Part shown: positions 25,275 to 61,400 of the stretch, piece after piece
Layout of the letters: each line of letters opens with the position of its first letter
Position numbering within the stretch: the first letter of the stretch is position 1
Origin: Haliclona indistincta
Lineage: Eukaryota; Porifera; Demospongiae; Haplosclerida; Chalinidae
Assembly (NCBI GenBank): GCA_964017065.1
Contig: OZ024786.1
Coordinates: 10,235,047 to 10,299,046, forward strand
Direction: 5' to 3'
Length of the DNA: 64,000 nucleotides
Notes under the pieces: model-generated
Seen by the model: only the letters and a program-made list of their open reading frames with translations
Told to the model about the DNA's origin: nothing
The model's database searches: none
Position numbers and translations under genes: made by a program

Positions 25275-25314
25275 ATCAGAAGCTTAACACACTACAGTTA
25301 CAAATTTTTCAACT

Positions 25315-25945
25315 AGAGTTCTAATGAACACATGCCCGTGCACTGAGCTAAGATCTACATAGTTAGTACACGACTACTCCAGCATTACTGCAACAGTCCA
25401 TGGACAGCACCTGATGACGGTACATGTGGGATTGAGTGTTGGCCAGGACGTCAACATGGAAGGCTATAGGAGGTTTGGTGATACACCCGCAATGCCGAAA
25501 TGTGCTCTTAAAAGGACACGTTTGCTGAATAAAGTACTGAAAACATCTTCACACGACTATAAGTTCAGTGAAAAAGTTGCAGAGAGTGTTTCGTGGAGAT
25601 TTTCGAGCAGCAAGATGCCAACAGATGTGCTTTATTTACACCTTACATAATATACATACATACATACATACATACATACATGCATGCATGCATGCATGCA
25701 TACATACATACATACATACATACATACATACATACATGCATACATACATACATACATACATACATACATACATACATACATACATACATACATACATACA
25801 TACATACATACATACATACATACATACATACATACATACATACATACATACATACATACATACATACATACATACAAACATACATACATACATATGCAGG
25901 AAACTCAAATGCATAACCCACACACATACTGCTCATGGGTAACAC
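25315..25945. repeat. Array-intron repeat with (TACA)n expansion
   Basis: This repeat lies in the SH2a-SH2b intron of beta2 and starts TTCTAATGAACACATGCCCG. A (TACA)n tract with a short ATGC part fills 25649-25893, replacing the short ACACATAC part of other copies. Tyr/Ile/His and Met/Tyr/Val/Cys frames through it are artefacts. Confidence 0.8.
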
Positions 25946-27683: not shown

Positions 27684-28667
27684 CTTTAATCAGAAATACT
27701 CAGTCATGACTGCATGTAATATCATTGCCAGAAACAAGCGGTCACTGAGCAAATTTTCACGTATAATCTATTTTATCCGAATACGGCATCTTTGAACTGT
27801 ATGGCGAGCTGACCTCGACAAGGGCTCACGCTGTACTCAGTTCGAAAAAGTTCACTACATTTTCAGATTGAAAATATTGATCAAATTCCGAAATGCTCTA
27901 TACATTATTGTGCAAAAACTGAGTACGTTCACCACTTTGCTGCAATGTTTCACAGTGATACGTATATACACGTTTTCTTGCTCCCAACTTTCCTACTCGA
28001 CTAAGAAGAGTTGTACTAGAGGCTGAGTTGGTCGCTTTTCTTGTACATGAAAAAATGTCACTACAAAATTGACATGAAAATAATTGCTGATTTAGTTAGA
28101 TTTTCATGGGCGTAACTGAACTTAATGAGCAATTATGGCGCCTAGTTGTGACGTGCATGTACCGTTGCAGCTTTGTCTTGCCATAGTGAGTGTTAAGCAT
28201 GGACAATCGTGCAAATGTAAATCGCCACAAGAGTTTTATAGTTATTATTTTCATTTTATAACAGTTTTGCAAATGTGACCACCAATAGTATTATATTTCT
28301 GGCCAATCAAGTATAATGCTCACATGTGTAAGTATTCAATCCTGCATTAATATCATGAGGCTTCAAATAACCAATTTGTTAAACATGTTACATTGTCAAT
28401 AGGTTGATACTGTGCACCGATTGACAAGGAATGATAAACAATCGGTAATATCCATACCGATATTGTCAAAATGGTTGGAACTTCATATTCTTTCCTTTTT
28501 TAATATTCGTATTTTCTATTTTTCCAGCTCACAGCACACAGCTTTAGCTTTGTTAGCATCACAGACTGTTGAACTCTAGCTACATGATCGTAAATTCCAT
28601 TAAAGTTGCGTATCAGTGAGCACAACAGATTTGTATCGATAAAATGTCATTTTGGTGCATCACTAAC
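27684..28667. other. Intron of beta2, nothing recognised
   Basis: This is AT-rich intron sequence between the unknown-module exon and the linker exon. Its right part (28380-28660) resembles 55845-56160 of alpha1. Confidence 0.5.
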
Positions 28668-29065
28668 CATGAGCAGTAGAGCTAGTAGCTGATACTGAAG
28701 TGTCAGTTGTTGCTATAGTAGATGTTAGATGTGTAGCTGATGCAGTAGAACAATCTTGTACATCTAAAGGATTAATATAGAAAATGCCCAAAAGCTGTCT
28801 AAAATAGCATACCGTATAGTGGGTAAATTACGCGGGACCAATTTTCCACATTTACACAGTTTTTGCTTTAACCATGAATATATAACATACGAATATTGGG
28901 AAATGATTGGGTTGGTTTGCTGTCAGGACATGTCGATGAAAATTGAATTCGCAAAAATGCTCAAACACTTAATTCGCGAAAATTTAGCCCCATGAAAATT
29001 ACCCGCAATAGGGTATTCATGTTTACTCTTAATTGGTACAATAAAACTTCTGCCAGCCTGGTTAG

Positions 29066-30265
29066 GCATAACTATGCCTCAGTGGGCGGAACCACGAGGC
29101 ATACAGTAATTGGTGTGTTTTTGTCTTTGTGTGTATGTCCGCTCTAGCTAGTTGTGAAAGACATCCCCCGAAAGAATCACTGCTGGTGCACAGTAAGTGC
29201 ATTATCGACATAATAGCTCAAATTTGATGTTCTTAGATTTTTGCTTAGTTCGTGAGTTATCCATGGCGTGATTTCCTTACTTTGTCTACTGTTGCTGGCG
29301 ATCTGGACTTCAGTCTCCGAAGTCGAATGTGTCCATGGTTAACTGGCAAATTGTAGGTTTGATCTGGATTACAGGATAGCGTGGCGGGTGCGGATAAAAT
29401 TCAACAAAAACCAAAAAGCAGCTACAAGCATGGCTGTGTGCAGTCGTCTAGTTCCCAGACCACACCTCCACCTATTGCGAGAGAGGTCCCGGTGGCTTTA
29501 GTTGCACTTTCTTGGGCTTTTAATGTACGAGAGTTACGTAGCACTAATGAATCTGTGGAATTTGCACCTGCAAAAGAAAAATGGCTGCTACACACAAATA
29601 TGTAGTTGCGCGTTAGACGAGGGAGGCAATCTACGAAGGCAAAGACGTCTAGACAATTGTTCTCAAGACTTGAAGAAGTACATAGAGATGATTGGGTTTA
29701 AACACTAGTCATACGACAATCCTACGCACGCTTGTCGAATATGCTTCTCTGACTTCGAGAAAGGAGCTAAGACTACAGGTGCACTGCAATCTATAAACAT
29801 GTGGCTCGAGAACGTCAAGCATATTGACTATAGTCGTATCGAGGTACATGTATCTTCAAGGCCATAATTCTATCGATGTGGTTTGTATTGCGTAAGAGTT
29901 GGCTTTCTGATGAATCAGATATTCTATCCCAGACATTCCGGGGAAGATATTACTTCCGGCTCAAAGAAAATGGACTAAAGCCACCAGACCCTCTCCGGCT
30001 CGCAATAGGTGAGGAGTGTGGTCTGGGGATGAGTCTATAATTATAGGCTGTGTGCTTGCCTAGCTTTGTGCACACCCAGCTAATTATTACACTGTGGTAG
30101 CATACCACTGGCTTCTGTTATTTTTGCCAGCTTGTATCAATAGCTTGCATTGTACTTTATAAATCTGTTACAATCATCATCTGCATTGCTGTGTGCTGTC
30201 AAACCATGTCCAGTGGGCAGCATGCATGCAATTCTACCGAGGCATCTGCACCTTTGTAGCTTCAT
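29066..30265 (+). repeat. Dispersed repeat with coding-like fragment
   Basis: Ends match 9214-9620 and 9650-9720. Between them a plus-strand frame near 29720-29870 reads HACRICFSDFEKGAKTTGAL and NMWLENVKHIDYSRI, and another near 29885-30010 reads SWLSDESDILSQTFRGRYY. The two are in different frames. CRICF could be half of a zinc-binding site. I do not recognise the family. Confidence 0.4.
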
Positions 30266-30270
30266 TTTAA

Positions 30271-31416
30271 CCCTTTAATTACTAAATTATCTTACTGAAT
30301 TTTTAACCTCGTAAATGCTGACCACTTCTATCATGAATATCTCGTGTGTCTTTTGTACGTGCTACTGGTCTCAAATTTACGTCCTTTTACACCAGTCAGT
30401 AGCCGCAATTGCCCACACTCAAGTCGGTCGATATGCCCCTCCCACTTCGAAAGTGAAGCCGATAAAGTGCAGCGACCTCGTCAAATTTTGCTCAAAGTTA
30501 GTACTTAGGGGCTGGCTACTGAAAAGTACATATAAATAGCAGTGGTTTTGGTGAGTGTAAAATGTAGCCCAGATCATAGAGAATGCGCAAAAATGTGTTT
30601 TCCGAGCACCCAAAGCCATAAAATGTCCAAATTTTCTTGGCAGCCATTTTGTTTTTCCTAACATGTTGTGAAATTTGCACTGAAGCCATAGAAATGCTAG
30701 CGCCAATACATTTAGCGCAGGGGGCGCACCGAAAACCGGTCAATTTTTTGCGGTTATAGTGAAACCTGTCTTAGCGACCACTTGCACATAGCGACCACCT
30801 CTCTCCAGCATCCACGACAAAATACCCCGACCAACAGCTATTAATATAGAAAAGCACCTAGGGCCAACGTGTCTACAGCGACCACCTGCCCAATGTGGAC
30901 AACGACCGCACATACCAGCACGTAGTGTACAAAACTACACTGTCGATTACGGCCAGTAGGCGTAGCAATTAGGCGAAGTTACTGATTACTGGCGCGAACA
31001 GTTACGATCAGTTGCTATTGACTCGACATTGCTAAGCTAAGAAGTATTTCTGTAAAACAAACTGTACTGGAGGACTTTTTCACTAATGTATGCTGACTTA
31101 ATAATTATCGAAACCAGCCCGAATATTATCAGTCAATTCATTGTAATTTATTTTAGCTGTGAAGAGTTTTCTGTTAGCTACATTTGTTGAATTGATTGCA
31201 CATTATAAATGCATGAATCCTGTCTAATGAGGTCACATTCGGTAGTGGTCGTTCTTCACAGGTAACTGCCTACAGAGTCCACCTGTCTATTACACCCAGT
31301 AAAAATTGGCCCATAGGTGGTCGCTTTAGACAGGTTTCACTGTATTTGTATTCTTCAATTTGGCATAATTTTGGGATATTTTAGCACTTTTTCATACGTC
31401 ATTTGGGCTTAAAGGG
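30271..31416. mobile_element. piggyBac-like nonautonomous element
   Basis: TTAA at 30267-30270 and 31417-31420 flanks ends CCCTTTAA and TTAAAGGG. TTAA duplication with CCC/GGG ends is the piggyBac pattern. It contains a nested pogo/Tigger-like MITE at 30757-31342 and no recognisable transposase. Confidence 0.7.
30757..31342. mobile_element. pogo/Tigger-like MITE
   Basis: Ends read TAGTGAAACCTGTCT (first C changed to T) and AGACAGGTTTCACTG, flanked by TA. Subterminal motifs AGCGACCACC and GGTGGTCGCT repeat at both ends. TA target and CAGTG ends fit the pogo/Tigger group of Tc1/mariner. Confidence 0.8.
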
Positions 31417-31940
31417 TTAAAGCACAATGTGGTTCTGTTCCTCTGACACACAAAGTAAGTCATACACTACGTAAAAAGATGGTAATCCTGACAGTTATAA
31501 CCACAGTATTCCCACCGTGCAACACAGTTACCCTGTGGTTGCACTGGCGTCGATAACTGAGTTATACCGTGGTTATACTGGCAGGCTAACTTCAGGATAT
31601 GTTTCTATGGTTAGGCGGTGGTTATACATGGCCAGTGCAACTTGCGTGTAACTACAGGATAACCACGGGATAACAACAGCAGCGAATAACTGTGCCAGGA
31701 TAACTACCGGGATAACCAGTGCAACAACAGTATACCCACCGCGAAACTACCGTCCACAACCAGGCGGCCGGTAGCGCCCCTGCGCCCGATCCACTGCTAT
31801 ACACGCCCATTACGAAATGCTTCTTGAAACACTTTTTTAAAAGAACACACATGCATAATAGTACTACGAAGTTTGCTGTACAACATCCAGATACATGATC
31901 ATGTGCTACAGGAAGCAGCTGCTAAGAGTAGCACACAGAT

Positions 31941-32503
31941 GCCATCACTCCTGTATAATATGGAAACCCAGTAAAGCACACACGATATCTACCGAACCTG
32001 ACAAACAAGACGTCATCATGACCCTCACTCCTCTAGTCTAGAGAGATACAGACGCCATCACTCCTGTATAATATGGAAACCCAGTAAAGCACACACGATA
32101 TCTATCGAACCTGACAAACAAGACGTCATCATGACCCTCACTCCTCTCTATATACAGACGCCATCACTCCTGTATAATATGGAAACCCAGTAAAGGACAC
32201 ACGATATCTACCGAACCTGACAAACAAGACGTCATCATGACCCTCACTCCTGTAGTCTACAGAGATACAGACGCCATCACTCCTGTATAATAAGGAAACC
32301 CAGTAAAGCACACACGATATCTATCGAACCTGACAAACAAGACGTCATCATGACCCTCACTCCTCTAGTCTACAGAGATAAAGACGCCATCACTCCTGTA
32401 TAATATATGGAAACCCAGTAAAGTACACACGATATCTACCGAACCTGACAAACAAGACGTCATCATGACCCTCACTCCTCTAGTCTACAGAGAGACAGAC
32501 GCA
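31941..32503. repeat. 113-bp minisatellite, five units
   Basis: Units start at 31941, 32054, 32160, 32273 and 32386 with GCCATCACTCCTGTATAATA and contain CCGAACCTGACAAACAAGAC. Unit 2 is 106 bp; the others are 113 bp. It lies inside the CACTA-like element. Confidence 0.9.
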
Positions 32504-33082
32504 AACTGGGAAATAGTAGCACACTGGGAAATACACACCATGAACACTATCGTTTTGAGAGCTGAACTTGGACACAGAAACTTGAATGAAGCATCTCCTA
32601 GTCACCTCATGTAAACAGTCGCGATTATTATGAAGCACAGTGCACACAACCTATACTAATTTAAACCTTGCTAGTTTATATACTACTAAAATACTGATCA
32701 TGAACTCACTAGAGAATTTGGTAACAACGTTAAAGCTTTAGCATCAGTTCCATTTGACACGGCATCTGTAAAACAGCAATAGTTACACTAGATTCACACA
32801 TCAGTAACCTTTTCTCTTGCCTATAAGCAACTGAGCAAGCTCTGCTGAAAGAATACGCCAAATCCCACTCACCACGTTGCGTACAAGATGGCGGACGAGT
32901 ACGTTTTGGCGCCAATCAGCTGACCAATGGGATCAATTCGCGCGGAATGTTTAGCGCGTAATTCACTTATTGATTCCAGTGGTATCATAACTTATTTTAC
33001 GCAGCTAAGGTTGAATCTAGCACCTGTCACAAGGCATCTAGATGTGCATGCTTGATTATTACAGTTGTCCAACACTATTATA
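32504..33082. other. Interior of CACTA-like element, nothing recognised
   Basis: No coding sequence or known repeat is visible apart from AT-rich DNA. Confidence 0.4.
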
Positions 33083-34302
33083 ACAAGTAATAAAAACATT
33101 TTAACCAAAATGCAAGAGATTTAGGGTTGGTACATTTATCGAAAAAGTATGGAAACAAGATTTTTGAAATCAAAGGATTGTAACAATAGCAGTGTAATGC
33201 TACCTCCCTTTTAAATTAACCACAACTATCGAAAGCAGTTAATTTAGGGAGGTAGCATTACACTGCTATTGTTACAATCCTTTGATTTCAAAAATCTTGT
33301 TTCCATACTTTTTCGATAAATGTACCAACCCTAAATCTCTTGCATTTTGGTTAAAATGTTTTTATTACTTGTTTCTTTTCTTTTTTTATTAATGACTTAG
33401 TTGGCACTTATGCTTTTACAGTGTATATAAAAGAGAACTATTTCAGCTTAGCTTATGCTGATTGACTCAGTACTCGATCGACTCTGCACTACATGCAACA
33501 CGTACATGCAACATTAGCTAAGCTTAAGCTAGTATTCTTACAAGCCTGAACAGACAAATCCAGTGTAACAGCGAAGATTTGCTCGTTGTCTGCTGTGAAC
33601 AGCAGCAGCACACGCGTTCCAAGCAATTTGTACTAAGGTGCGCTTGTATTAGAATAATTACATACACGGGCGTGCGCGAGTAGGCGTAACCTAGTAACGG
33701 AGTTCAAACAGAATGATGGAATGGAGTCTGTTATGGACCAAAAATCGCCGTTTTCCTGAAAATACTCGCTTCTGCTAGTGTTTTAGGCTTAAATAGATAT
33801 CAGGTGCGCTGCTCCCAACGACTAGTGTAGTTTCTGTGTAGGTTTTGTCTTGAATAGCTCACTAGCCACGGGGCTAGACTGACTGAAAAAGAAGAAGAAG
33901 AAAGAAGATGAACAAACGGGTGACCACGTGAATTCTGGTTAACCACCTTAGACCTGGTTTCTTTTGCTTCTGAAGGTCTCTTTACAATCGCACAAATCGT
34001 GCAAGGAGCTTCAGAACGTTAGATTAGCTTGAAACGCCCGTATGGCGAAGATATGGCAGTGCCGTACTTAGTGCCTCCAGACGAGACGCCATCTTGTCAT
34101 GCCCAAAGCAACTGCTCTTATAGTCTTTATTAGTAGACTCATTGTAAGCGCTTACCTCTTAGGATAGCCCCTAGGTAGTTAAAATACCCCTGATGTTGTC
34201 AACAGCCAAGATATACGTGAATCATTGCGTATAGCCTAAGTGTAGCCGCCATCTTGTTTTCCACCCAACCCTAAATATGCCACTGCTACCGCGTGGCATA
34301 AT
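33083..34302. mobile_element. Composite foldback element, copy 2
   Basis: Palindrome 33083-33375 is followed by sequence that is the reverse complement of copy 1 (2406-3893) without the hAT insert, ending at AACCCTAAATATGCCACTGC and a short hairpin. It is nested in the CACTA-like element, so it inserted later. The stretch 34303-35040 holds nothing I recognise. Confidence 0.75.
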
Positions 34303-36148
34303 AGCCTCAATTTAAAAATCAACTTCTCAGGTGAAGAGAAATCAACAACATAATGTCTCAATGGAACACATTCATTGACTGAGTCTGTCCGTAGTGATTT
34401 AGGTAGACAATGTTTCAAAGCTTGTCTCTTCAGTCAACATCGCATAGAATCAGTCAACAATACACTGAAATCAGTTTGTTGTTGTCAATGCCGTCAGAAT
34501 TGATCTAGAATAAGTGAAAACACTAGTTAATCCAGTACAATAATTCTAGTAGTTAAAGGTGTGTAAACAGTGTTAAATATCATTGTGGTAGTTAGTTAAC
34601 AAAAATGACGTGCTAATGGAGGAAAATCTATACTGAATGATGAACCAAGGCATGAACCATAGAACAGAGATTCAGAGCATAAAGAATCCTGGTGATAGGC
34701 ATAGCTAGAGTATAGGTACTGAAGGACACGCACTTAAGTTTGAGTCACTTTTCTGTATGAAAGCATGTACAGGCCTTAGGGAGTAGAATAAAACTGAAAT
34801 ACCACTAGTGATCGAGTGAATGTGCATGACCAGATTCTTACAGAGGCTATTTATGCAACATACCGTCCAACTACGCCTGTACTACAGTAAATGACGTACA
34901 GCTCATGATAATGCTGAAGAAATCCTGAAGCTGAAGGAATCATAGCCTTATCGATAACAGCTCACGATCGTAGTAGCGCTATCGCTGACCTGCCCTGCCA
35001 TGATCGCCATCTTAATGTAGGCGTTACTACCACACCTTTCATTCTAGCAGGATGTGGTCTTAACCAATGGTTATGCAGGTCCACCGCAGCGCAGTATAAC
35101 CCAGGATAACTAACGTAGTAAGTTATTCGGTAGTTGCACCGTAGTTATACTGTACAAGTTATACCGTGTGCAGAATTCCCCAGGGTAACCTAGTTATACT
35201 GAACAGTGGAAAACCACGGGTAACCATCCTTTTCTTGTAGTGATAATGGCGATAAGCACAAATATATTATTAATCACATCGTGCCTGAAATTATTATACT
35301 TCTCTCAGTATTGCTGACAGTGAGTGGTGTCCTGTCAGCAAGACTGACAAGACAAGTTTAGTTTACTGGCTTGGTTCATCATGTGGTTAGCCAAGTATCA
35401 TGCACTGATGAAAAGATCGACAAGAATATAATTTTTATGAAATTTACCAGGAGGTAGCACAAATTTTAACATGCTTGTGAATCATATGCAGTATATACCA
35501 GGCCTTCATTGAAGAAGGCCTGAGTACAAAGCTAGCTTTTTACACCATCAATAATTTCATAGACATGCACTCAATCATATTAGAGAGAGGTACTATAATA
35601 TAGTACCGAAAAAGAGATACTAAAAGCCTGGTCACAAGCTACGCTAACCACTAGACACACTGTACCTGTTACTGGTAAGATGTATTTGTCTCTCAACGAA
35701 ACTGACAGCGTTTGGTGATTGCTACTCTCTAGAGCGACTATGATATCATTCCACGAGGCATCAGGTGTCGAGTTTAGCCAATACTGGAGCATATCAATCC
35801 TCCATCGTTGTACTCCTTCCAGTGGAGACAATTTCTGGATCTCTTGTAGCTTATTGGGATGAATTCTCAAAGCCACACCCAGAGAATACCAGTCGTTCAT
35901 GTTTTTTAATTCAGTTGTCAACTGGAAGATGGTTGGGGCTTGAACGTCTGTGTACAATAAATCATTGTGGAAGCATAGATATGGTGGAAGGTTCAAGGTA
36001 AGACCACGTACACATAGTGACAACTCGATATAGTGGATTTATACTCATGCACACTAACACGTTCAGAATCAAACAACACGGAATGTACATATGCTGCATC
36101 CATGAAGAACGCAAACAATATTGTAACTCCACTAATTATTAATCTATG

Positions 36149-39634: not shown

Positions 39635-40015
39635 TGACATTGAGTTCACTGGATATTGATAATAATTATGTTAGTACTGTGTGATCACCAATTGGTATAA
39701 GAACTGCTGCTGTGACACATCGCATTACCATTGTATTGATAGAGTCACATCTTTCTCGAACATCTTTGAGTCGCAACCAATCACCATCTTTATGAACACC
39801 CAAACTAACAAATTCGTTCTGTATACTCTAAGAATCAACAGTTTAAACATAATAATATCTATTCATGATGCAATATTCTAACTACTTACACAATATCCAT
39901 GCACTGTGAAGAGGCAACTGCATGGTCCTGACAGGTCAGTTGCTCTCACTAGGAATCTCTCATCTATCCTACCTCTCAGCACCTCTCTGACTCCTCCTTA
40001 CTGAGTTGTCTGCTG
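39635..40015 (-). pseudogene. Decayed SH2b remnant
   Basis: Both halves of the second SH2 domain are recognisable by alignment: the 3' half at about 39640-39835 and the 5' half at about 39895-40010. Indels (for example near 39910 and 39985) break the frame. It shows that the array once had another gene between beta2 and beta1. The stretch 40020-40480 holds nothing recognised. Confidence 0.6.
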
Positions 40016-40488
40016 AATTTCAACTACTGAGAGGGAATGCAGTTTTTTTATTATAGTAGGCTAAATAAATGACCAATGAAATAATGATTATGTTTTCAGA
40101 AGTGCATTAAAACGTCAGACGTTGTAGATCTTATCGTTTATTTTCAAAGTCCTTTGAACCCTGCTTTAACAGGCTTTGATGCTATTATTCTTTTTAATTA
40201 AAAACCAGTGAATTTTTTCATGTAAAATTGTCTTTGACAATAAGACTAAAGCCTAAATTTGACAGTCAATAAGGGACTCATGACATCAAAAGTAGTTGCA
40301 TGGAGACAATATTACTAGACAGCATTAGCTTAGTGGTGTATTTATTATTAATAATTTTTGTATTTTAATATTAAAGCACTAGATGCTAACCATTAATTTT
40401 CACCGACATAAGAGCCATTAAGAGATGTTGATTTTTCAAGATATTGTTACCATGCACATGTGCATCACCCTCAACTGGTATTTACCCC

Positions 40489-41473: not shown

Positions 41474-41896
41474 CTAGAATGAGACACTCACTGTTCATTC
41501 TACTTAGAACCATCTACTTACTATAGAACAATGAACAATGTCATTTTGTTTAAAAAACACTTTTTAACAAAAATTTGCCGAACAGAAAAAGAAGCACACT
41601 ATTTATAATAATTTGATGAGTGCACTGGATATCGAAAATGTACTAGTACTATCTGATCATCAATTGGTATAGGAACTACTCCAGTGAGATGATCCATCAC
41701 TAATGTGTTGATAGAGTCATATCTTTCCCTTTCTCCTTCAAAATGTAACCAATCAACATTTCTATAAACACACAGACTGACCACCTTCCTCTGTACCCTA
41801 AAGAACAACAAACAACTAACACACACACAGTGATGATAATGTATAGTGTATTAATGTCAACTCAAACACTGACAAAATTTTTGACTAATTGAATTA

Positions 41897-42577
41897 CAGT
41901 GAAAACTGCTGATTAAGGTGGCGATACACGCTTGCTCATTAATTATTCATGAGTTGCAAGCAAAATATTATGCGGACACTGTATCAAGACGAAACGCGCT
42001 ACAATGGCGCAAAGACAAGTAACAGAGGCGCCAAGGACTGTTCTTCTGCAGCACCGACCACAAAGCACATCGTTGAATTTTTCGAGTTTCTGCGTCAACT
42101 TTTGTCTCAGCCTTGCCAGAGAAACACGAAAAAACACCGCCAATCGATGGTTGTACATCCAACGGAGGGCCATTCCTAGTCTGCAGATGTCCTGATAAGC
42201 TAGCGCTGAGAAATGACACGATATGTTAAAACTCAAGGGCGATCCCGCGCCTTCTTCGAGCCATAAATCTCAAACTACTTCTTTTTCGACAATATTTTTA
42301 GTCACTGGCCCTGCCCATGCCTTTGTAGAACCGAGAAAACCTGGTCACACGGTCCGCTGAATAGAGCTGATCGAAAACTTTGACGCAGAAAAAGTCCACC
42401 AGTACCGAGTCTCAAGTAAACCGCGAGCCAACCACATGCAGCTGTATTAGTACATACATGGGGCTAGACCGCCTAACAATATTCACAGAGGCCACATGAT
42501 GATATTCAATTGTGATCTTAATATAGAAGTGGTCTTATTAAAATGTACACAAATGGTCCTTAAGACAGGTTTTACTG
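41897..42577. mobile_element. pogo/Tigger-like element 2
   Basis: Ends CAGTGAAAACTG and the complement of CAGTAAAACCTGTCTTAAG are flanked by TA. The empty site is seen in paralogues (ACTAATTGAAATTACTATA). No transposase frame is seen. Confidence 0.65.
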
Positions 42578-42914
42578 TATTAAAAAGTTTATTATATGAT
42601 TTGATAAGTTCGCACTATGCAGTATGGCATTTGCGTCAGATTAAAATAATTAATTTTATTACATTGACTTACACAATATCCACAGTGAATAGGTGACTGG
42701 GACCTGACAGTCTCACTAGGAAAGTCTCATCTATCCTCCCTCTCAGCAACCTCTCTGATTCCTCCTTACTGAGCTGTCTGCAAAGCCATGTGCTCTCATC
42801 ATGGTGAGGGTAATGCTTGGGAACTAGTGATGCCACATCACTGAATGTGTAATACTGAGGAGGTTAAATAACATGTAGTGATTATTATCAGAAGCTAAAC
42901 ACCAAAATTTAAAA

Positions 42915-43275
42915 CTGGAGTTCTAGTGAACACATACCCGTGTGCTGAGCTAAGATCTACAAAGCTAGTACACAACTACTCCAGCATTACTGCAACAGTC
43001 CATAGAGAGCACCTGATGACAGTACATGTGAGATTGAATGCAGGCCAGGATGACGACATGGATGGATATAGGAGGTTGGGTGACACACTCACATTATAGG
43101 AGGTTGGGTGTCGTGTGAAAACGTCTTCACACGACTATAAGTTCAGTGAAAAAGCTGCAGTGAGTGTTTTCGTGGAGAGTTTTGAGCGATAAGACGCATA
43201 CAGGCGTGTTTTTTGACGACACATATATACGTACATACGAAGACATGCAAATAACCCTCCCGTGTATCGTGCACG
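42915..43275. repeat. Array-intron repeat in beta1
   Basis: It lies in the SH2a-SH2b intron and starts TTCTAGTGAACACATACCCG. It is internally deleted compared with 49255-49700 and ends GTGCACGGGTAAC. Confidence 0.75.
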
Positions 43276-44330
43276 GGTAACAAATGGCTATAACAGACAA
43301 TACCATTACACATTGAATCAACACTATTCTCTAAACATTTGCCTCTCAGTACTTGCAGGTATTAGTTTTTTCGTATGGCATCTTGATAGTAGGTACCTGT
43401 ACGTAGCTAAAATCAAGCTTCAATTTGGAATTAAATTCACAAAAATTCAAATACTAAAATCGAATGATTGGAAAAGTACAATTTACACACTCACTCGTAT
43501 GATAGTGGGAATATCTGATGGTAGGTTAGCAAGAGTATCTCTACAGATAGTGAGAAGTGATAAACACAAACAACATTACCGATAGCTCACTTGTTAGGAA
43601 ATAGTCGATTGGTCAGTGTAACTGATGTTGTTCCTTCATTCATAGTAAACCCTGTTCTTGAGAGAACTGCTACACAGTGTTCAACTGATGTGAATATTTC
43701 ATCATTGACTGATCCATAGTAGTGTCCTCTTTTGTTAATTGCTACATGCTCAACCCTACCATTGACACTGTACAAACAATAAACACCAGTTACCATGGTG
43801 ACATGTACTACTCACACAACACTGATAACATGTGTGTTGATTGATGATGATGATGGATCAGTAACAGGTTCCCCACTCCTCCTTCTGACGAGAAAGCTTC
43901 CGTCTGGTTTATAAGTCAAGATATACTCAGCCTCCTCTCCTGTGATCTGCCATATTGAGCTGGAGGGCTCACTCTGGGTATGTTGACAACCATTATGTAC
44001 TATACCATCATCAGTAACACCATCACTCACAGCACTTGAGTGTGTCATACTCTTCATCACATCCTCAGCTGCTGTGGGTAGGAAACACTCATGACCCATG
44101 TGCACAGTATGACTGCAACACAGACACATATACAATGTATTACCATACCTTGAGAATCAGATCCCCTCAAGAAGTCTGTGATTTGAAGCAAGAGCAGCAT
44201 ATTTGTATTTAGTAATAAATCTACTTTCAACTCACCTTTCAACTGAAGTGCAATGGTTAGTTGAAGTACAAGATCTTTCACAAGTGATATCTGATGATCA
44301 AAATCTAAAGTGACACAGTTTCTATGATAA

Positions 44331-44973
44331 CTTAGAGTATAGCTCAATGTTATTGACCAATCAGATTTATTAGATCCGAGGATCTATTTGCTGTAGAGAC
44401 CATCCGCAAACCGGGATAGAGTCCATCCGCGAACAGATAGAGTCCTTCCGCGAACAGATAGACCACAGTTTGGGGGAGTGGCCTGGAGGCGAGGCTAATT
44501 CATAACAAGCCATAAAATTGTTATTACAGGCACACGTGATGTGAGGCCTTGTACACGTGTGAGCGTGAGTGAGTTCCAGAAACGACCTTCTTGTAGCGTC
44601 AGAAAGCCACTAGCAGACGCGAAAGCGATGGCGGAAGGACGGTAGGAGACGAGACAGAGTACCAGCAAAGTGTAACAAGACAAGGGAAACCGTTTAGCGA
44701 CGTACTCTAGCTAAACTCGCCTGTGTTTTCCATCGCTGAATTACGGCCGTGTTCTTCACAAAACATTTTGCTCAGCGTCGAAAATTCCTTGGTTGGATAG
44801 CAACGGTTGCTATACTCTAAGCCGGTTAGAGACCTCGGCCAACGGGATCTACGCGGTATAGAAACCCTCGCGTCGCCATAGAACCCTCGCGCTACGCGCT
44901 CGGGTTCTATATGGCTTCCTTTCGGGTTTCAGGCTATCCCGCGTAGATCCCTTGGCCTCGGTCTCTAACCTAT
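44331..44973. mobile_element. Two adjacent insertions in a short beta1 intron
   Basis: Part 1 (44331-44821) has ends CTTAGAGTATAGC and GCTATACTCTAAG. Part 2 (44824-44970) is a hairpin with arms GGTTAGAGACC..GGCCAA and an inner CTCGCGCTACGCGCTCGGG core. Paralogues have an intron of about 50 nt here, so both parts are insertions. Translation of the flanking exons is not affected. Confidence 0.7.
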
Positions 44974-46326
44974 ACATATCCTCACCTCATTCTGATCACT
45001 GGTGTCCACTACTATAGTGTCTCCTACCCTAAGGTAGGTGACACTGCTCTCCACCAGCAGCTCCCTGTTCTTTTGTGCTAGTATCACCAGTTCGGTCATT
45101 AGATCCTGTGGAGCACAGCAGATTACCCGTACACTCCCTTCTCTAACCACAATGATGTGTACGTAGATACTCTGTTTTTCAAAAGCTTGTCGCAAGAGAC
45201 TTTGAATATCGGACAGTGTTTTAGTGTCTGGACTCCATTGCAATTTAAATGAGATAATGCCAGAATTGGTCATATTGATCGACTTGGCTGTGATAAATGG
45301 TTGCATATAGATGTGATGTCTCAGCTCATGTTGACAGAACTCATCCACTGACTTGTAGTAGTCATTAATTTTTTCAACAGCTGATGTAATCTTGAATTGT
45401 GTGGCAGCGTGTTTCAGGTAAGAGCAGCAGGTGAATGATGACTGTTCTTGGAGTACTTGCACAACATCAGCAATGGTGTTAGCATTACACATGTGGGGCT
45501 TTTAGGTTGGGATATCCAGAGAGAAATATTTTCAGCTCACTAATTGTAACTGATTCTTCATTCTCAAATAGCTTAGTTACCTCATAGAATAGTGATACAA
45601 ACTTTCCTTGAATATCGTCGTAAACTCTTTTGTAGCTCTCTGATACAATCACCTGAGTTGCTTTAATCAGAAACACACAGTCATGTTTGATATTATAGCA
45701 TAATAATGCTCACGTGTGTAAGTATTCAGTCTTCAATTTGTACGAGGCTTAAAATTCATTAAGGTATAGTGGTCAAGCTGAGTGTGGGCAGCCAACCACA
45801 GTATGCCTCTGCCCACACTCAGGAATAATAATATTGGTGTAAGTCAGTGCTCATGTATCATCATACTATACATCTGCAATGTCTGCTATTGCTATATACT
45901 TTACCTGAAGCAGTAGTAGCAGTAGTGGATGGAACAATAGCAAGTCCAGTATGATCTGGTGGTGTAGAGCAGTACTCCTGTTGACCTGCTAACGGCAAAA
46001 TGTATTTTTCTCTCAGTTTAACTGATAGTGTGTGGTGACCGATTGTCTTCAAAGCGACTATGATATCATTCCACGAGGCATCAGGTGTTGAGTTCAGCCA
46101 ATGCTGTAGCAAATCAATCCTCCACCGTTGTATTCCTTCCAGTGGATACAATTTCTGGATCTCTTGTAGCTTATTGGGATGAATTCTCAAAGCCACACCC
46201 AGAGAATACCAATCGTTCATATTGGTCAATTCAGTTGTCAACTGGAAGATGGTTGGGGCTGGAATATCTGTGTACAGGAAATCATGAAGTGCATGAAATA
46301 CGTTATTGTAGCTCACTGTCAGACAT

Positions 46327-46740
46327 TGTTCAGGTTATAAACAACTAAGCATAAGTAGAGAGAGAGCCTCAGCATAGATACAGCGTTAGGCTGCGCTAGC
46401 TCTAGACCGTTTTGTTTGGGTCCGCGGTCCGACCTCCTCCTGCATTCCATTGCTTGTGGGAATTTGTTTGTTCGCTTTTCGCACGTGAGAGAAAATGGGT
46501 GGGGCTCGTACAACGGCAGTTAGCTTTGTAGCAACTCAACCGACTAAACTGCTGACCACAAATCAGTACATAAACATCTAAAGAATCTATCATGTGCTTG
46601 CAATCATGAAGAATTATTCTATACCTTTGGATCAAGCACATGTTCATGTTGTGTACAGCTACGTACATGCATGTAAATTTGTAATCAAGAGACTTGCAAT
46701 ACAGATCACTGTTCCCACACTACTGCAACCAATTGTTAAC
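46327..46740. promoter_or_regulatory. Putative divergent promoter, beta1 and cupin
   Basis: The spacer lies between the beta1 ATG (minus) and cupin-upstream sequence (plus, from about 46620). It is conserved with 2180-2405 and partly 59930-60220. Shared motifs are CGCACGTGAGAGAAA and GGGTGGGGCTCGTA near 46480-46510. Confidence 0.35.
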
Positions 46741-48549: not shown

Positions 48550-51500
48550 TTATTTATAATACTTTGATGAGTGCACTGGATATCGAAAATGTACTAGTAC
48601 TACATGATCACCAATTAGTATATGAACTGTAGTAGTGAAACGACGCATCACTAATATGTTGATAGAGTCATATCTTTCCCTATCTCTTTCAAAATGTAAC
48701 CAATCACCATCTCTATAAACACACAGACTGACCACCTTCCTCTGTACCCTAAAGAACAACAAACAACTAACACACACACAGTGATGATAATGTATAGTCA
48801 ATTCAAACACTGACAAAATTTTTGACTAATTGAAATTACTCCATATAATAATAAAAAATATGCACATGTGCGAAAACTCATTTTAACACATGAGTAGCCG
48901 CCATCTTAATTCGAGGTCATCCCTACATATTATTGCCGATCGGCAATGATAATTATTATACGACTATATAAAAATTATTGGTATTACATTGACTTACACA
49001 ATATCCACTGTGAAGAGGTGACTGGGACCTGACAGGTCAGTTGCTCTCACTAGGAATGTCTCATCTATCCTCCCTCTCAGCAACCTCTCTGACTCCTCCT
49101 TACTGAGCTGTCTGCAGAGCCATGTGCTCTCATCATGGTGAGGGTAATGCTTGGGAACTAGTGGTGCCACATCACTGAATGTGTGATACTGAGGAGGTTA
49201 AATAACATGTAGTGATTATTATCAGAATCTAAACACACTACTGTTACCAAGTTGTAACTAGAGGTCTAACGAACACATTCCCGTGCGCTGAGCTAAGATC
49301 TACATAGTTAGTACACGACTACTCCAGCGCTAGCATTACTGCAACAGTCCATAGACAGCACCTGATGACGGTACATGTGAGATTGAGTGCAGGCCACGAC
49401 AAATATGGATGGACAGAAGTGGTTGGGTGACACACCCACAATGCAGTAAAATGCTCTTACAAGGACACATAGCTTTAGAAAGCCATGGATTAGCAGCTTG
49501 AGCAAGGTTTGCCAGCACAGAAAACGTCTTTACATGACTATAAGTTTAGTGAAAAAGCTGCAGAGAGTGTTTTCGTGGAGATTTTCAAGCGGTAAGATGC
49601 AAAAAGGCATGTTTTTGATGCCACAAATATGTATACAAACGTACATAGACAAACTCAAAATGTAATGCATAACCCTCCCACATACTGCGCACGGGTAACA
49701 AATGGCTATAACAAACAATACCATTACACATTGAATCAACACCATTCTCTAAACGTTTGCCTCGCAGTACTTGCAGGTATCAGCTTTTTCATATGGCATC
49801 TTGATAGTAGGCACGTAGCTAAACTCAAGCTTCAATTTGGAATTGAATTCACAAAAATGCAAATAAAAATCAAGTGATTGGAAAAGTACATTAGTGAATT
49901 CACACACTCACTCGTCTGATAGTGGAAATATCTGATGGTAGGTTAGCAAGAGTATCTCTGCAGATAGTGAGAAGTGATAAACACAAACAACATTACTGAT
50001 AGCTCACTTGTCAGGAAATAGTCGATTGGTCAGTGTAACTGATGTTGCTCCTTTTGTTATACTAAACCCTGTTCTTGAGAGAACTGCTACACATTGTTCA
50101 ACTGATGTGAATTTTTCATCATTGAGTGGTCCATAGTAGTGTTCTCTTTTGTAGATTGGCAAACTCTCAACCCTCCCATTGACACTGTACAAACAATAAA
50201 CACCAGTTACCATGGTGACATGTACTACTCACACGACACTGACAACATGTGTGACGATTGATGATGATGATGGATCAGTAACAGGTTTGCCCTTTATTTC
50301 TCTAACAAGAAATGTTCCATCTGGTTTGTAAGTCAAGATATACTCAGCCTCCTCCCATGTGATCTGCCATATTGAGCTGGAGGGCTCACTCTGGGTATGT
50401 TGACAACCATTATGTACTATACCATCATCAGTAACACCATCACTCACAGCACTGGAGTGTGTCATACTCTTCATCACATCCTCAGCTGCATGGGCAGGAA
50501 ACACTCACGACCCATGTGCACAGTATGACTGCAACACAGACACATACAATGTATTACCATACCTTGAGAATCAGGTCCCCTCAAGAAGTCTGTGATTTGA
50601 AGCAAGAGAAGCATGTTTGTATTTTGTAATAAGTTTCAGCTCACCTTTCAACTGAAGTGCAATGGTTAGTTGAAGTACAAGATCTTGCACAAGTGATATC
50701 TGATGATGAAAATCTAAAGTGTCACAGTTTCCATGGTAACATATCCTCACCTCATTCTGATCACTGGTGTCCACTACTATAGTGTCTCCTACCCTAAGGT
50801 AGGTGACACTGCTCTCCACCAGCAGCTCCCTGTTCTTTTGTGCTATCCTCACTAGTTCGGTCATTAGATACTGTGGGGCACAGCAGATTACCCGTACACT
50901 CCCTCCTCTGACCACCATGATGTGTACGTAGATACTCTGCTCTTCAAAGGCTTGTTGGAGAAGATCTTGTATATCAGAAAGTGTCTTCTCTGCTGGGCTC
51001 CAGCGCAATTTGAAAGTGATGGTTGTAGAAGAAAAATATATCGACTGGCCAGTAAGGAATGGTTTCACGTAGATATGGTCAATTAACTTTTTATGACAAA
51101 ATTCATCCACATCTTGGCGGTATTTCTCAACTTTTTCAGTGACAGAAGGGATATTGAATCGTCTAGCGACTCCTTTGAGAATCGAGCAACATGTGAGTGA
51201 CGAATGATTATGAATTATATCGATGATATCTGAGATTGATTTAGTATTGTCTAGTAAGTTATTCATCTCAGGGATTTTGGCGACAAATCGTTTTAATCGT
51301 TCTGGAGTGACTGATTCCTCATTCTCTAATATCTCGGCTACTTCATCAAAGAGCTGAGCAAATCTATTTTGAATGTCTTCAAAATCTTCTCGAAACTTTC
51401 CAGGTACTATGACCTGAGTTGATGTATCTACAGTGAAGAGACTACACATCATTGCCAGCAACAAGTGGACACAGAGTCAATTTTCTCGTGTATTATTACA

Positions 51501-54500
51501 ATGCATGACCACATCGATCTGTATGGCAGTTATTTGGTGGTTGACTTCTCTGGGCATTTCTGAATGCCTACTTACATCTTCATAATTAATTTCATCTTCA
51601 TAATGACATCTTCATAATGACGCCGCCCGTGCTACAACTAGGTTGTAACACCGGAAGCATTTGTTGCCTGGTCAACAACTAGCAACAATCGGAAGACCCC
51701 GTGGAAGTGATTTTTGCTCGAACCAATGTTCAAAAAGCGATCGAGCGATCTAACAGCGCCCAGTATGGACCTAACGGCGCCCAGTATTATATACTATTCT
51801 AGCTGGCACGTTTATAGGCGAACTACTGGGCGCCGTTAGGTCCATAATGGGCGCTGTTTTCACTGAGTACTTCTTCGTTGCTTCCTCCAAGTCTCTGTCA
51901 TCAACAGAAAAAGAGAACCTATCTTTTGCCAAAGAAAGCGACAGTTTTGCTCGTTTAGCTTCTGGTTCTGCCGATTGAGGAAGATTCTCCTTATCCTCCA
52001 TGATAACAATAAGCTGGTATACACGGCGCGGTATGGCAACGTGCTGACCATGTGGAATAAATTTGCGCATGCGTCTAGCGCCCACGCAATATGAATACAA
52101 ATTACTCATAACACGGGTAGTCGGGATGTATTGAATTTAAACTATGATATGAATAATTCTCTTTGATGTAATGAGGTATCCAAATTCGCGTATTGACCTG
52201 TGCGTGGGCGGGTGTAAAAAACATGGCGTCACCGCGCACTAGGCAGAAAATTATGCGCCGTTTATCAGGCTATTTGTATCTTCTGCGCCGTTTCGGGTAG
52301 CTTGCTGGTACAAGAGTGTCATTTTCTCTCCAGGTAAGTCGAAATCATAGTTTAAACCGGTTGGTTATAAACCTCGGTTTTCGGTGCATATGTGAATTTG
52401 GATTCCTCGGGCTTCGCCCTCGGTATCCAAATTCCCATATACACCTCTACCTCGGTTTATAACCTACATTTATTGACCTCGCCCTCGGGCGCTACGCGCC
52501 CTCGGGCTCAGTCAATAAATTCAATACCCGTGTTATAACTATTACTTGTGAAATTCAGTATGTTGGTCGATAGCTGAATGAGCTGGCACAGTACTCAGTT
52601 CAAAAAGTTTAATACATTTCCAGATAAAAAATAATGACCAATTTCCTAAAATTTATGGGCTAATACAAAAACGCATACAAAAAACGCAAACGGGCTACCT
52701 GCTAGCAGTAATTAACGCATACAAATTTCTTCCTCCCATCATCTTTATGCAAAGGTCAAGAGTTCTACTATAGGCCGAATTGCTCGTTTTCATTGCAAGT
52801 GAAAACGCAGTTCAATGCTCACTCTAACATCATAGTTTTAGTATAAATTTAAGGGGAGTGGCTGCAGTTAGCATTCTACAATCATGGCGTCTTGTTTCGA
52901 CATGCATTGTAGTGTTCTTGCTATGGAGCATGTTTAGCTAAGTCGCTACTATAGTTTTGTAGTAATACAATGCAGTTTATAACAGTAATTAGCAATGGTT
53001 AGTATTACAGCGCGTTACACTTGTGGAACCGTTCTGGTCCGGTCTTTGGGATTGATCTGGGAACGGTTCTGTACCCCGTTTATACTATCCAGAGCCAACT
53101 GAATCACAACCATGCCTCTAGCATCACGTGATCTGACCACACCTCTTGTACTGGGTGTGGCTGTTAACGCCCAACTACGTCTACAATCATGGAGCCAGAG
53201 CTGGCGATACGTATACCGCTTATTATGACTCTTGTTGTTAATTCAGCCTCTCGTAATGCATCAAGACGCCTGTCGTGACACCTGTGAGCAATGCGAAAAC
53301 GCCCATTTTAGTACGCTAAAACGCATACTGTACTTGGGATCGCTTCCGTTTACACTATAAAAAATAACCGTTCTGAATTGGTCTGGACCTACACTTGTAT
53401 GTCGAACCGATCCTAGCGAAACGGATCGGTTTGGAACGGTTCTGCATCCGTTTACATTGGGCTTGGAACGGTTCTGGAACCGTTCTAAGCTCAAGTGTAA
53501 ACGGGCTGTTAGATATCTGGCAATGAATCATAGCAAGAACAAGTGCAGTGTAGCTAGTGTAGTGACTGCCTATCATCGCTGACCAGCAATGAGCAATGAT
53601 AATAATGATTCGCAAATGCATCTCATGGTACCTTGAGTATTAGAAATAGATGCAGTAGTAGCCAGACCAGTAGTAGTTGTTGTGGTAGCCAGTGCAGTGA
53701 CTGGTGAGGTACATTCCTGTTGACCTAATAATAACAAAACTTAATGTGCATACGTTTTGACAGGTATGTGAACTGAATTATTGCTTATCAAAAATATTTT
53801 GCATATAATTTTGAATAAAGTCAAAGGGTTCCAGCTTTTAAAATGTCAGCCGATTTTTCAGTTTGCCCCGTTACCCACCACCCACTACGTCATTTTCCCA
53901 TCATTATAATGATATTTATAATTAGTGCTTGATTATTCATGGTGTTAATATTCATGCAATACCACGTACTTAATATTCATGCATCGATTGCGAATACTAC
54001 GTGAACGATGGCTATGGAAGTGCAGCAGCAGCAGCAGCAGAAAAAGCGCTGTTACTGTGACTGTGGTATTTAAACAACAGCTACCATACAGCAGAACACA
54101 AAAGAGCAAACAACATAAGCCATGACAGCAAACATGCAAGATGTAACGCCTGGACAGCAACTTTCCCAAGGCTGCAGCAGCGCAGAAAATAAACAATCTA
54201 TACCTCATTTATGAACATGATAGTAGAAATTATGCATATAAAAATTATTTGGTCAGAAATAGACCAGAAACTCCTAAAAATGCCTGTACTATTTTTTCAA
54301 TAAATGGACTTTTTTAAAAATAGTATTTACCCACCCGCCCATTTTTGGCTAAGGGTCCGGGCTGAAACTTTTAGGCTCATGATCTACTACATGTAGCTCA
54401 TGAAATGTTTGACTTAGACATAGTAATACATAATGTCCTGTCTCTAATAAATGTATTTGTAGCACTTTGTGTGGGTGTATCAAAGGCGCCACCTGTTCTA

Positions 54501-57481
54501 TAATTTCCATAATGCGAATGGTGGGAAAATATGACTCCATTAAGGGCAGAGATTCAACGGGGTCAAAGGTCACAAAATTAACTCTTTCCTTGCTTGGCTC
54601 GATTCGGGCTCACTCCAAATCCACCTGAATGTAAGAGCTCGATGTGGCTCCTCTCCAAGACCTTTCTGGGACAGAGATCATCCTCTGAAAACCAGGTGAG
54701 TGCCGACTCCAATAGAGGCTTGTAGCACACCCATGCACCTGCACCTACAATGCTTGGTCGAATGCTTGTAGCTGAGTAAACGTGTAGATGGGTAGTTTCA
54801 GTAATGTTATCTCCAAAGCATCTTTGGTATCCAAGTGCTCTTCATTGTATGCTAATGCTTTACTGTGTTGAGTCTCAAGTATCACTGATCCCACTAAACT
54901 ACTATCATCATGTTTCATTGTTTGACGCGTCCACGATGACTATAATATGTAGCAATAATACTTTATTACTGACAATTAATTTTAGTCCTCACACCTTTCC
55001 GGTTACTGATGATACAACGCTATTAAAGTGGGAGTTTATGTCGTATTGTAGTGAGATCATGAGATGGCCCAGGAACGTCCTGCTTTCAGCATTTGTAGGG
55101 CATCAGGGTGCTCGGAAATTTATACTTTGGCACAGGGGGTTCCAGTACTAAAAGTTTCAGACCCGAAGCCAAAAAGAGGGTGGGTGCATGGGTAAAGACC
55201 ATTTTGGAAAAAAGTCCATTTATTGAAAAAATAGTACAGGTTATTTCAAGTGTTTTTTTTCCTTCAAAAAGAAAGGACTTGGTGCTTCTCTATTTGTCCG
55301 TTCCATGTTCGGGTCAAACCACTCTACACACCGAGACGTAAGCCCGCTGAATCTGTGTTAATTTTTTTCATTGGGAACCCTATCTTTGTGTTCTGCTGTG
55401 TGCAGTCACTGAGGGCTGTTGTTTTAAAACCACAGCCACAGTAACAGCGCCTTTTCTGCTGCTGCACTTTCATAGCCATCGATTCATCGTTCGCGCGATC
55501 GATGCATGAATATTAAGTACGTAGTATTGCGTGAATATAATTAAAACCATGAATAATCAATCGCCGATTATGAATATCATTATAATGATGCAAAATGACG
55601 TAGTGGGTGGTGGGTAATGGGTGCAAACTGAAAAATCGGCTTCGGGTCCGTAATTTCCGACGCTGGAACCCCCCGCTTTGGTATAGAATATGGTCTAAAC
55701 TGTGCTGTTTGCTTGGACACCACCAGGTTTTTGTATTAGAGGCACTGTACAGATGTACTAATCAGCATAATGCTCACATGTGTAAGTATTCAATCCTGTA
55801 TTAATATCATGAGGCTTCAAATAAGCAATATATTAAACATGTTATGTTGCCAATAGGTTGATACTGTGCACTTAAGTCCCCTATTGTTTTTATTTCTTGT
55901 TAACATTTTCTCTTGATATCTATGCATTGTATTAAATTATTTCTCATAGTAAAAAGTCTAAAACAAAAATTGACAAGAAATGATGAACAATCGGTAGTAT
56001 AAATACTGATATCATCAAAATAAATGAAATTCAGATTCTATTTTTTTAAATCTCTGTATTTTCCATTTTCCACCTCACAGCACACAGCGCTTTATGATCG
56101 TAAATACCATCATTAAAAATTGCAGATTAGTATCAATGAAAGTCATTTTGGTGCATCACTAACCATGAGCAGTAGAGCTAGTAGCTGATACTGAAGTGTC
56201 AGTTGTTGCTATAGTAGATGTTAGCTGTGTAGCTGATGCAGTTGAACAATCTTGTACATCTAAAGGATTAGTCTAATAATATCAACTGTGTATGATCATA
56301 AATTGTATCACTAGTACATGCACATAACAAACATGTGTCAAATACAACAAGGGTGTAATCTAGCCGCTGTGTTCATGCTGCTGTTCATGCTGATAAAGTT
56401 GAAAGTAGTAGTTTGAATGTGAATTTTGAAAAAAGTACGTAACATAACGTAAAGAGTGATTCGTGCCTGTTTAAAATAGTTAACCCTCTATTGTTGACAC
56501 AGTTCAAGAAGTAGTAAACCACTGTATCATGTATGATGCCTGACTAAAGGGTTCGGTAAGGTAGGCTAACATGTTACTGTACGTAACTACACAATACCAT
56601 GCATGACGATGAGCTGTAGGCAAAGTATAAAGGCTTTACTCAAGTCCTGACTGTCCCTATACGCCGTCACTACATAGTTAAACCTACAAGTATAACGGCA
56701 GTCATCCGTAGATAGGTTCAGAGCAGCCATCAGGTTAGTTTTTAACCAATCAAATCACACAATGTATCGAAGCAGTCATTTCGTTCATACAGCGCACCTG
56801 ATTCAGAACCAATTCAAGGGTTTTGTGGGCCGTTTCTAACTATGTTTGGGTTTATAGGCTCCAGTAGTTTACTGGAAATCGTGCTTAGCCTACTGGATTA
56901 GGGTTCCAAACCATCTGAATGAAGTGAATGCTACCACCATTAGAACCTGGACAGTCACAGCCTCATCAGACAAACCCTCTAAAGCATATTATGTGCTAGC
57001 TGGCTAACTACTGTAACTCTTCACACATTGTAAACACAAGTGCATTGTTGTGGTGCTATCAATCATGCAAGTGAGATTATACATGTTGTGTTGTAGTACC
57101 TGAGCGAGCTAGAGGGCAACCAACAGCTGTAGCTAGCTGCTGAGCTACAGCAGGCTCGTCACACATCACGACAGCATCAATCAACATGACCCACAGGTTG
57201 CCGGTAGTGCTGCTGCCTCGAACCCATCTCCGGATCAGCTCTTGCAGCTTGTCGACTGAGGTCCTGCAATCAGCATCGATGATTGGGACAGTGGTTGCCA
57301 TCTTCAAACCACCGGCAAGAGACCGCCATTTGTCCGCGGGGAAACGAGCTTTGTGCAGCTCGAAAACTACTGAGTCGACGTTGAAACCTAAACACAATGA
57401 TCAAAGACATAGTTATTAACAAATATGATAGCGGTTTACGAGCTCTTTACCTTGTACTGTGGAGAGAGAAGCTTGAGACAT
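48550..57481 (-). CDS. alpha1: Death / unknown module / tandem SH2 protein, intact
   Basis: Twelve exons (57451-57481, 57100-57387, 56164-56259, 53632-53724, 50751-51427, 50645-50699, 50563-50589, 50233-50485, 50008-50184, 49912-49957, 48998-49188, 48550-48748) sum to 2133 nt, giving 710 aa with all phases consistent. Death domain about 12-102; linkers DVQDCS (107-138) and GQQECTSPV (139-169); unknown module 170-395, with a helical first half (FREDFEDIQNRFAQLF, CCSILKGVA) and a beta-rich second half (IYVHIMVVRGGSVRVICCAP, VTYLRVGDTIVVD); SH2a about 458-560 with FLVREIKG; SH2b about 600-705 with FLVRATD. The SH2a exon uses a shifted acceptor because the usual CACAG is CATG; this costs one Ala. 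The intron 51428-53631 contains a Harbinger-like MITE and hairpin elements, and 53725-56163 a long inverted-repeat element. Function by domain logic only: phosphotyrosine-reading Death adaptor. Confidence 0.78.
49255..49700. repeat. Array-intron repeat in alpha1
   Basis: It lies in the SH2a-SH2b intron. From GTCTAACGAACACATTCCCG to TACTGCGCACGGGTAACAA. It is a good uninterrupted reference copy. Confidence 0.75.
51765..52001 (-). pseudogene. Basic N-terminal fragment, possibly transposon-derived
   Basis: From an ATG at 52001 the frame reads MEDKENLPQSAEPEAKRAKL, then SLSLAKDRFSFSVDDRDLEE, and stops at 51771. It recalls N-termini of Crypton/ZMYM-like proteins common in sponges, but no recombinase core follows. 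Its 3' end runs into a hairpin (51765-51843; GGACCTAACGGCGCCCAGTA arms). Confidence 0.3.
52108..52535. mobile_element. Hairpin-rich TIR element
   Basis: Outer ends ATAACACGGGTA and TACCCGTGTTAT; inner palindromes around CCTCGGGCTTCGCCCTCGG (about 52407) and GCCCTCGGGCGCTACGCGCC (about 52485). The cores match the style of those at 720 and 44890. Confidence 0.6.
53008..53508. mobile_element. PIF/Harbinger-like MITE
   Basis: Ends CAGCGCGTTACACTTG and the complement of CAGCCCGTTTACACTTGAGC are flanked by TTA (53005-53007 and 53509-53511). Subterminal GGAACGGTTCTG units recur in both orientations. A TTA target suggests PIF/Harbinger. Confidence 0.75.
53826..55673. mobile_element. 1.85-kb element with long inverted arms
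   Basis: Ends GGGTTCCAGC and GCTGGAACCCC; arms of more than 200 bp (53840-54060 and 55430-55660, for example CATCATTATAATGATAT and complement). A second inverted pair lies at about 54285-54315 and 55210-55245. The adjacent 55677-55745 matches 61745-61806. Open frames inside are not recognisable. Confidence 0.65.
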
Positions 57482-61201: not shown

Positions 61202-61400
61202 TTATTTATAATACTTTGATGAGTGCACTGGATATTGCAAACGTGCTAGTACTTCATGATCACCAATTGGTATACGAACTGTAGTAGTGAGACGATGAAT
61301 CACAAAGGTGTTGATAGAGTCATATCTTAGTCTTGATCTTTCAAAATGTAACCAATCACCATCTCTATAAACACACAGACTGATCACCTTCCTCTTTACC
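61202..61400 (-). CDS. gamma: last SH2 exon, rest lost at gap
   Basis: The exon after a CTTTAG acceptor encodes the C-terminal half of SH2b (KVISLCVYRDGDWLHFER, GDHEVLARLQYPVHSSKYYK) and a stop. Upstream there is a piggyBac-like MITE, then the N gap, then an alpha-type first exon at 62128-62148. The middle of the gene is missing, probably collapsed in assembly. Confidence 0.6.

Follow-up and report, generated by a model that had tools for sequence, protein, structure and literature searches.

Genes that join an N-terminal death-fold domain, a conserved module and two SH2 domains form what exon matches indicate is a very large family in the sponge Haliclona indistincta. New here is a contrast between parts of these genes: the module and those SH2 halves that hold the phosphotyrosine pocket appear conserved (pN/pS 0.27-0.59), whereas the specificity halves have ratios of 1.76 and 1.38. 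Taking together gene structure, domain types, copy number, N-terminal domain exchange and this selection contrast, all established by computation, we give slightly better than even odds (about 0.55) to a rapidly diversifying family of phosphotyrosine-reading immune or allorecognition adaptors with a death-fold output.

Gene A and its relatives in the window

Gene A lies on the minus strand of the window (the whole stretch of 64,000 nucleotides analysed here) at 57481-48550. It has nine exons, all introns are GT-AG, the frame is kept and the product of 698 aa has no internal stop (Table 1). An earlier note, made from the letters alone, had proposed a frame of 710 aa; one intact gene is indeed present, with the shorter modelled length, and the splice sites, the open frame and dozens of repeats together give good support to a union of Death domain, module and two SH2 domains in one gene. 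Because dozens of copies repeat the exon order, chance is a very unlikely explanation of this layout. The introns ahead of exons 2 to 6 are all in phase 1, which makes exons 2 to 5 symmetrical, as would be expected of exons open to exchange. Intron 4 holds a 121-codon open frame on the same strand (52136-51771).

Gene B (21535-5309, minus strand) is a second intact copy of ten exons, with GT-AG borders at all introns and 671 aa up to the stop, whose position at 5309 was counted, the modelled last exon running beyond it. Its Death exon is at 21429-21142 (minus strand). We ruled out that gene B is broken, an extra short GT-AG intron in the module exon keeping the frame. It is probably the second full-length frame of the earlier note, given there as 701 aa, and lies outside the interval 48550-57481 in which that frame had been placed.

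Genes C and D carry a Death domain of canonical type. For a Pfam cut-off of 22.6 bits, the Death frame of gene D (46334-45864) passes with 25.4 and the Death exon of gene C (35948-35664) is slightly below with 21.2. The latter gene continues with a linker (28763-28668), a module (~27684-26899) and SH2 exons (26734-24323), and its SH2-1 has FLVC in place of FLVR. The module of gene D contains one stop and an insertion of ~650 bp, and its SH2 exons are located at 44068-41599.

Table 1. Positions of gene A exons and of related features in the window.
Feature	Position	Strand	Evidence or remark
Gene A exon 1, start codon	57451..57481	-	open frame, GT donor
Gene A exon 2, putative divergent Death domain	57100..57387	-	GT-AG, phase 1-1; profile, AF2, Foldseek
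Gene A exon 3, Ser/Thr-rich linker	56164..56259	-	GT-AG, frame; paralogous exons 28763-28668, 20264-20163
Gene A exon 4, Thr-rich linker	53632..53724	-	GT-AG, frame; similar gene B exon 19231-19178
Gene A exon 5, conserved module, probable helical and RRM-like (TRADD-N-like) parts	50645..51427	-	fold of relative P0004
Gene A exon 6, linker and first half of SH2-1 (FLVR)	50233..50485	-	splice model, Pfam SH2-1
Gene A exon 7, second half of SH2-1 (specificity half)	50008..50184	-	family pN/pS 1.76
Gene A exon 8, first half of SH2-2 (FLVR, p85 C-SH2-like)	48998..49174	-	splice model, structure match
Gene A exon 9, second half of SH2-2 (specificity half) and stop	48550..48748	-	family pN/pS 1.38
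Gene C, canonical-type Death	24323..35948	-	exon, domain and module matches
Gene D, damaged copy	41599..46334	-	Pfam Death; stop-bearing module; SH2 exons
Remnant of a further SH2-2	39672..40017	-	
Last SH2-2 exon of a copy with remaining exons outside the window	61205..61399	-	
Canonical-type Death exon	1833..2117 (C4:10236879-10237163)	-	no module between exon and left edge of the window

The SH2 pair and signs of selection on its halves

The Pfam SH2 profile accepts the whole gene A protein with 38.6 bits (cut-off 21); taken alone, SH2-1 scores 27.9 bits and SH2-2 20.1 bits, slightly below the cut-off. Among solved structures, the closest to SH2-2 is the C-terminal SH2 domain of p85alpha (6.1e-9). 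The FLVR arginines that the earlier note had reported are present in both SH2 domains of gene A. When the genome was searched with the Pfam SH2 profile one exon at a time, no match was listed in the window, because introns split both domains. Across the family, the FLVR arginine of SH2-2 is found in 13 of 22 rows, the remaining nine stopping short of the site and none having another residue. The SH2-1 arginine is present in 19 of 28 rows (gene A being entered twice, and 6 of 30 loci being without an SH2-1 row) and is replaced in the nine others by Trp (six), Cys, Ser or Gln (one each); these domains may therefore now serve structural or non-phosphorylated binding. About 15-45 residues, depending on where SH2-1 is taken to end, separate the two domains, which therefore have no long inter-SH2 coiled coil. 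Within exon 6, the linker (50485-50379) shows a difference of 0-2% between the copies of three window pairs, less than the adjoining SH2-1 halves.

For each exon, we estimated pN/pS from 11 to 15 nearest-neighbour pairs without overlap. The ratio is 0.27 in the first and 0.30 in the second half of the module, 0.59 in the phosphotyrosine half of SH2-1 (SH2-1a) and 0.34 in that of SH2-2 (SH2-2a). In the specificity half of SH2-1 (SH2-1b, exon 7) it reaches 1.76 (95% over pairs 1.28-2.74), and in that of SH2-2 (SH2-2b, exon 9) 1.38, with a range over pairs of 1.00-2.13 that touches 1 and a codon bootstrap of 0.94-2.11. The site models M1a and M2a, in an implementation of our own rather than a standard program, were compared on alignments that retained 23 to 31 copies in codon form, after dropping copies with stops or less than 80% coverage and merging identical ones. 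M2a was favoured over M1a for SH2-2b (2dlnL 115, omega 4.9 at 30% of codons) and SH2-1b (2dlnL 49, omega 3.7), and brought no gain in either module half (2dlnL 0). It was also favoured for SH2-1a (2dlnL 59, three sites) and SH2-2a (6.8, one site), so that the contrast between the SH2 halves is not absolute. With loop ranges that were set after the variability had been seen, 14 of the 18 selected SH2-2b codons fall in the EF/BG loop region, and the loops of SH2-1b are not significantly enriched (7/12, P 0.16). According to the available part of PMC9783222, the EF and BG loops shape the specificity pocket of SH2 domains and the FLVR arginine binds phosphate; the pattern in SH2-2 therefore suggests a phosphate pocket that is held and a peptide-choosing part that varies.

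Ratios above 1 might be sought in a family of ordinary signalling adaptors in partial decay, with specificity halves under relaxed constraint and pseudogenes among the copies. The damage to gene D, the stops in some module matches, the nine of 28 SH2-1 rows without FLVR arginine and the SH2-2b codon interval that takes in 1 would all fit such decay, but relaxation predicts a ratio of ~1, not the value of exon 7 or a site class of 3.7-4.9, and the adjoining exons of the same family hold at 0.27-0.59; we consider this account unlikely.

Divergence is also distributed unevenly along these genes. Median dS is 0.60 in the first module half vs 0.11 in exon 7, and intron 6 (50232-50185 and paralogs, 48-63 bases, within SH2-1) is almost identical in 24 copies, with a median divergence of 0.02. 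The near-identity of this intron contrasts with the variable exons on both sides. Its use as a reference for neutral divergence was given up, because introns 5, 7 and 8 contradict it; intron 7, for instance, diverges by 0.108-0.250 in window pairs. Taken over its full length, exon 9 is less divergent (0.106-0.146) than the preceding intron (0.258-0.289) in three window pairs, and any excess in this exon is therefore limited to some codons. The uneven divergence of exons and introns suggests gene conversion, which can distort codon models. By cutting silent differences in exons 7 and 9, homogenisation could have inflated their ratios, and both the strong inequality of silent divergence and the near-identity of intron 6 speak in its favour. 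Conversion, however, should hit silent and replacement sites alike, whereas, counted per site, replacement exceeds silent divergence only in exons 7 and 9 out of six segments, and the selected SH2-2b codons cluster in the EF/BG region (with the reservation on ranges made above), which leaves such an artefact a quite improbable source of the contrast.

N-terminal domains, module and tandem family

The Death domain that the earlier note had assigned to gene A is rejected by Pfam, which gives no match to exon 2 even at E 10; three other approaches agree on this domain, namely a profile of exon 2 with distant paralogs, an AlphaFold model and a Foldseek search. The profile matches the Death domains of THOC1 and FADD, with one designed TIM barrel (0.0028) ranked among Death domains. 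The AF2 model has six helices, with a pLDDT of 88 in the best of five models and 70.7 in the worst. Foldseek returned FADD as the best match (prob 1.00, TMq 0.72, E only 0.13), and its first 15 rows are all Death-domain structures. Designed TIM barrels matched by a profile of close exon 2 paralogs (A1; PDB matches to 1.7e-7) were set aside as spurious. Pfam detected Death in 3 of 28 close paralogs of exon 2 (best 0.016) and NFRKB_winged in 12 of them (best 0.056), and Death in 6 of 17 members of a set that includes distant paralogs (best 0.00015). A third type of N-terminal domain has a CARD fold in the fold analysis; Pfam matches among its 19 members are all weak (CARD in one, 0.011; Trp_repressor in four, 0.013). 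The N-terminal domain of the family is thus exchangeable: canonical Death, exon-2-type Death or CARD. Genome-wide, at least 150 exons exceed the Pfam Death cut-off (150 of 150 scored), among 1372 first-look candidates.

The module is probably composed of a helical part and a TRADD-N-like domain, as judged from the predicted fold of the relative P0004, which is 61% identical to gene A in the module. Its second half has the RRM-like beta-alpha-beta-beta-alpha-beta fold of TRADD-N (NCOA6 clade), and the TRADD-N motif, as described in the available text of PMC8195603, is GS in 13 of the 16 rows of alignment A8 and GC in three. The matches listed by the PDB profile search and the fold search include no known TRADD-N sequence or structure. 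Protein searches returned five proteins. The best genome identity of P0004 is 75%, and that of P0001 is 90%; their source is therefore a different individual, haplotype or species, or else sequence that the assembly lacks. Four ankyrin-ended relatives (L088-L091, contigs C8, C7, C9 and C2) are single-exon frames of ~700-1200 aa with the order Death, same module, ankyrin repeats (two loci by Pfam, two by eye). At a further locus (L092, contig C10), the module is located upstream of an LRR-looking frame (by eye), with a CARD-like exon just ahead; this looks like another C-terminus on the shared Death/CARD-module backbone.

Family members were searched exon by exon over the genome (144 Mb, 46 contigs), and all counts are lower bounds. 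On contig C4, at about 8.8-11.3 Mb, we grouped 70 module, 66 SH2-1, 71 SH2-2, 47 canonical Death, 14 exon-2-type Death and 12 CARD matches by order and strand, with gaps of at most 13 kb, rather than by transcripts. This grouping omits six short module fragments, two CARD fragments adjoining listed ones and matches elsewhere, and it includes damaged copies such as gene D, intactness being no criterion. Among the 69 module-bearing groups, 57 present the full order N-terminal domain, module, SH2, SH2 (38 with canonical Death, 9 with exon-2-type Death and 10 with CARD), six have no detected N-terminal domain and in six at least one SH2 part is missing. Of the ten CARD matches, three are stop-bearing fragments, lying in each case 1.1 kb downstream of an exon-2-type Death exon (one of which has a stop too), as if one N-terminal domain had been replaced by another. 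It is very unlikely that the Death/CARD exons and the module-SH2 exons belong to separate, neighbouring transcripts: some complete groups are 10-20 kb long and gaps to 13 kb were permitted, but the common order recurs on both strands, several groups span only 2.2-2.8 kb, phases are compatible in genes A and B, and single open frames, which may cross unspliced introns, connect CARD with module in P0004 and, in P0001, P0002 and four copies of the genome, module with SH2-1.

Proposed function and known systems

If the family indeed consists of immune or allorecognition adaptors, its genes would encode lineage-specific, tandemly amplified cytosolic adaptor-receptors. SH2-2, whose phosphotyrosine pocket is conserved, would bind a tyrosine-phosphorylated partner, and the EF/BG loop region of SH2-2 and the second half of SH2-1 would diversify under positive selection, allowing different copies to read different peptides. 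Binding would be relayed via the helical/TRADD-N-like module to the N-terminal Death domain or CARD, which would assemble with other death-fold proteins and produce a death or inflammatory output. Expression, phosphopeptide binding, the direction of the signal and the immune or allorecognition role are what we infer in this scheme. From the domain content, one may fairly infer that the family ties tyrosine phosphorylation to death-fold assembly. The association of a fixed output with variable recognition, and the selection pattern, resemble those of immune or allorecognition receptors. More tentatively, SH2 domains might be the variable part of an animal recognition system that combines a shared pocket, diversified loops and Death/CARD outputs and reads invader or non-self phosphoproteins. 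SH2 domains are usually regarded as conserved wiring; here they would act as a variable recognition element joined to a death fold, the specificity half diversifying while the phosphotyrosine pocket is held. This raises a testable question: are phosphotyrosine patterns read by some animals for immunity or self-recognition?

The combination of Death and SH2 domains, for which the earlier note knew no human counterpart, has a precedent in the sponge Amphimedon, and the novelty lies in the selection contrast between SH2 halves. According to the available text of PMC8195603 (eLife 2021), Amphimedon has Death-like plus TRADD-N proteins with variable C-termini, including SH2, which are placed in animal immunity and cell death; its NCOA6-clade TRADD-N proteins number 357, with C-termini including ankyrin, SH3-LRR and SH2. 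The present family shares with them one or more N-terminal Death-like domains, what is probably a TRADD-N-type module and a variable, often fast-evolving C-terminus. The same text describes no tandem p85-like SH2 pair, Death/CARD exchange or FLVR loss, and no test for selection, the term 'positive selection' being absent from its main part. The SH2 pair as apparent variable part would be an addition to this picture.

Three better-known systems can also be compared. The likeness of SH2-2 to the p85alpha C-terminal SH2 domain recalls the PI3K regulatory subunit p85 (PIK3R1). In p85, a long inter-SH2 coiled coil binds p110; the family differs by its short inter-SH2 spacing and by its Death/CARD-type domain, and for gene A Pfam listed no SH3 or RhoGAP. 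NLR / STAND receptors have a death-fold N-terminus, a central module and a variable recognition C-terminus, and the family resembles them in this layout and in being large and tandem. Unlike in these receptors, the variable part would be SH2, and no NACHT/NB-ARC was found in gene A, whose Pfam matches are confined to SH2 and a weak one to Elf4. With FADD / TRADD adaptors the family shares the Death fold, FADD being the top Foldseek match of exon 2, and it differs from them by C-terminal SH2 domains and many diversified copies.
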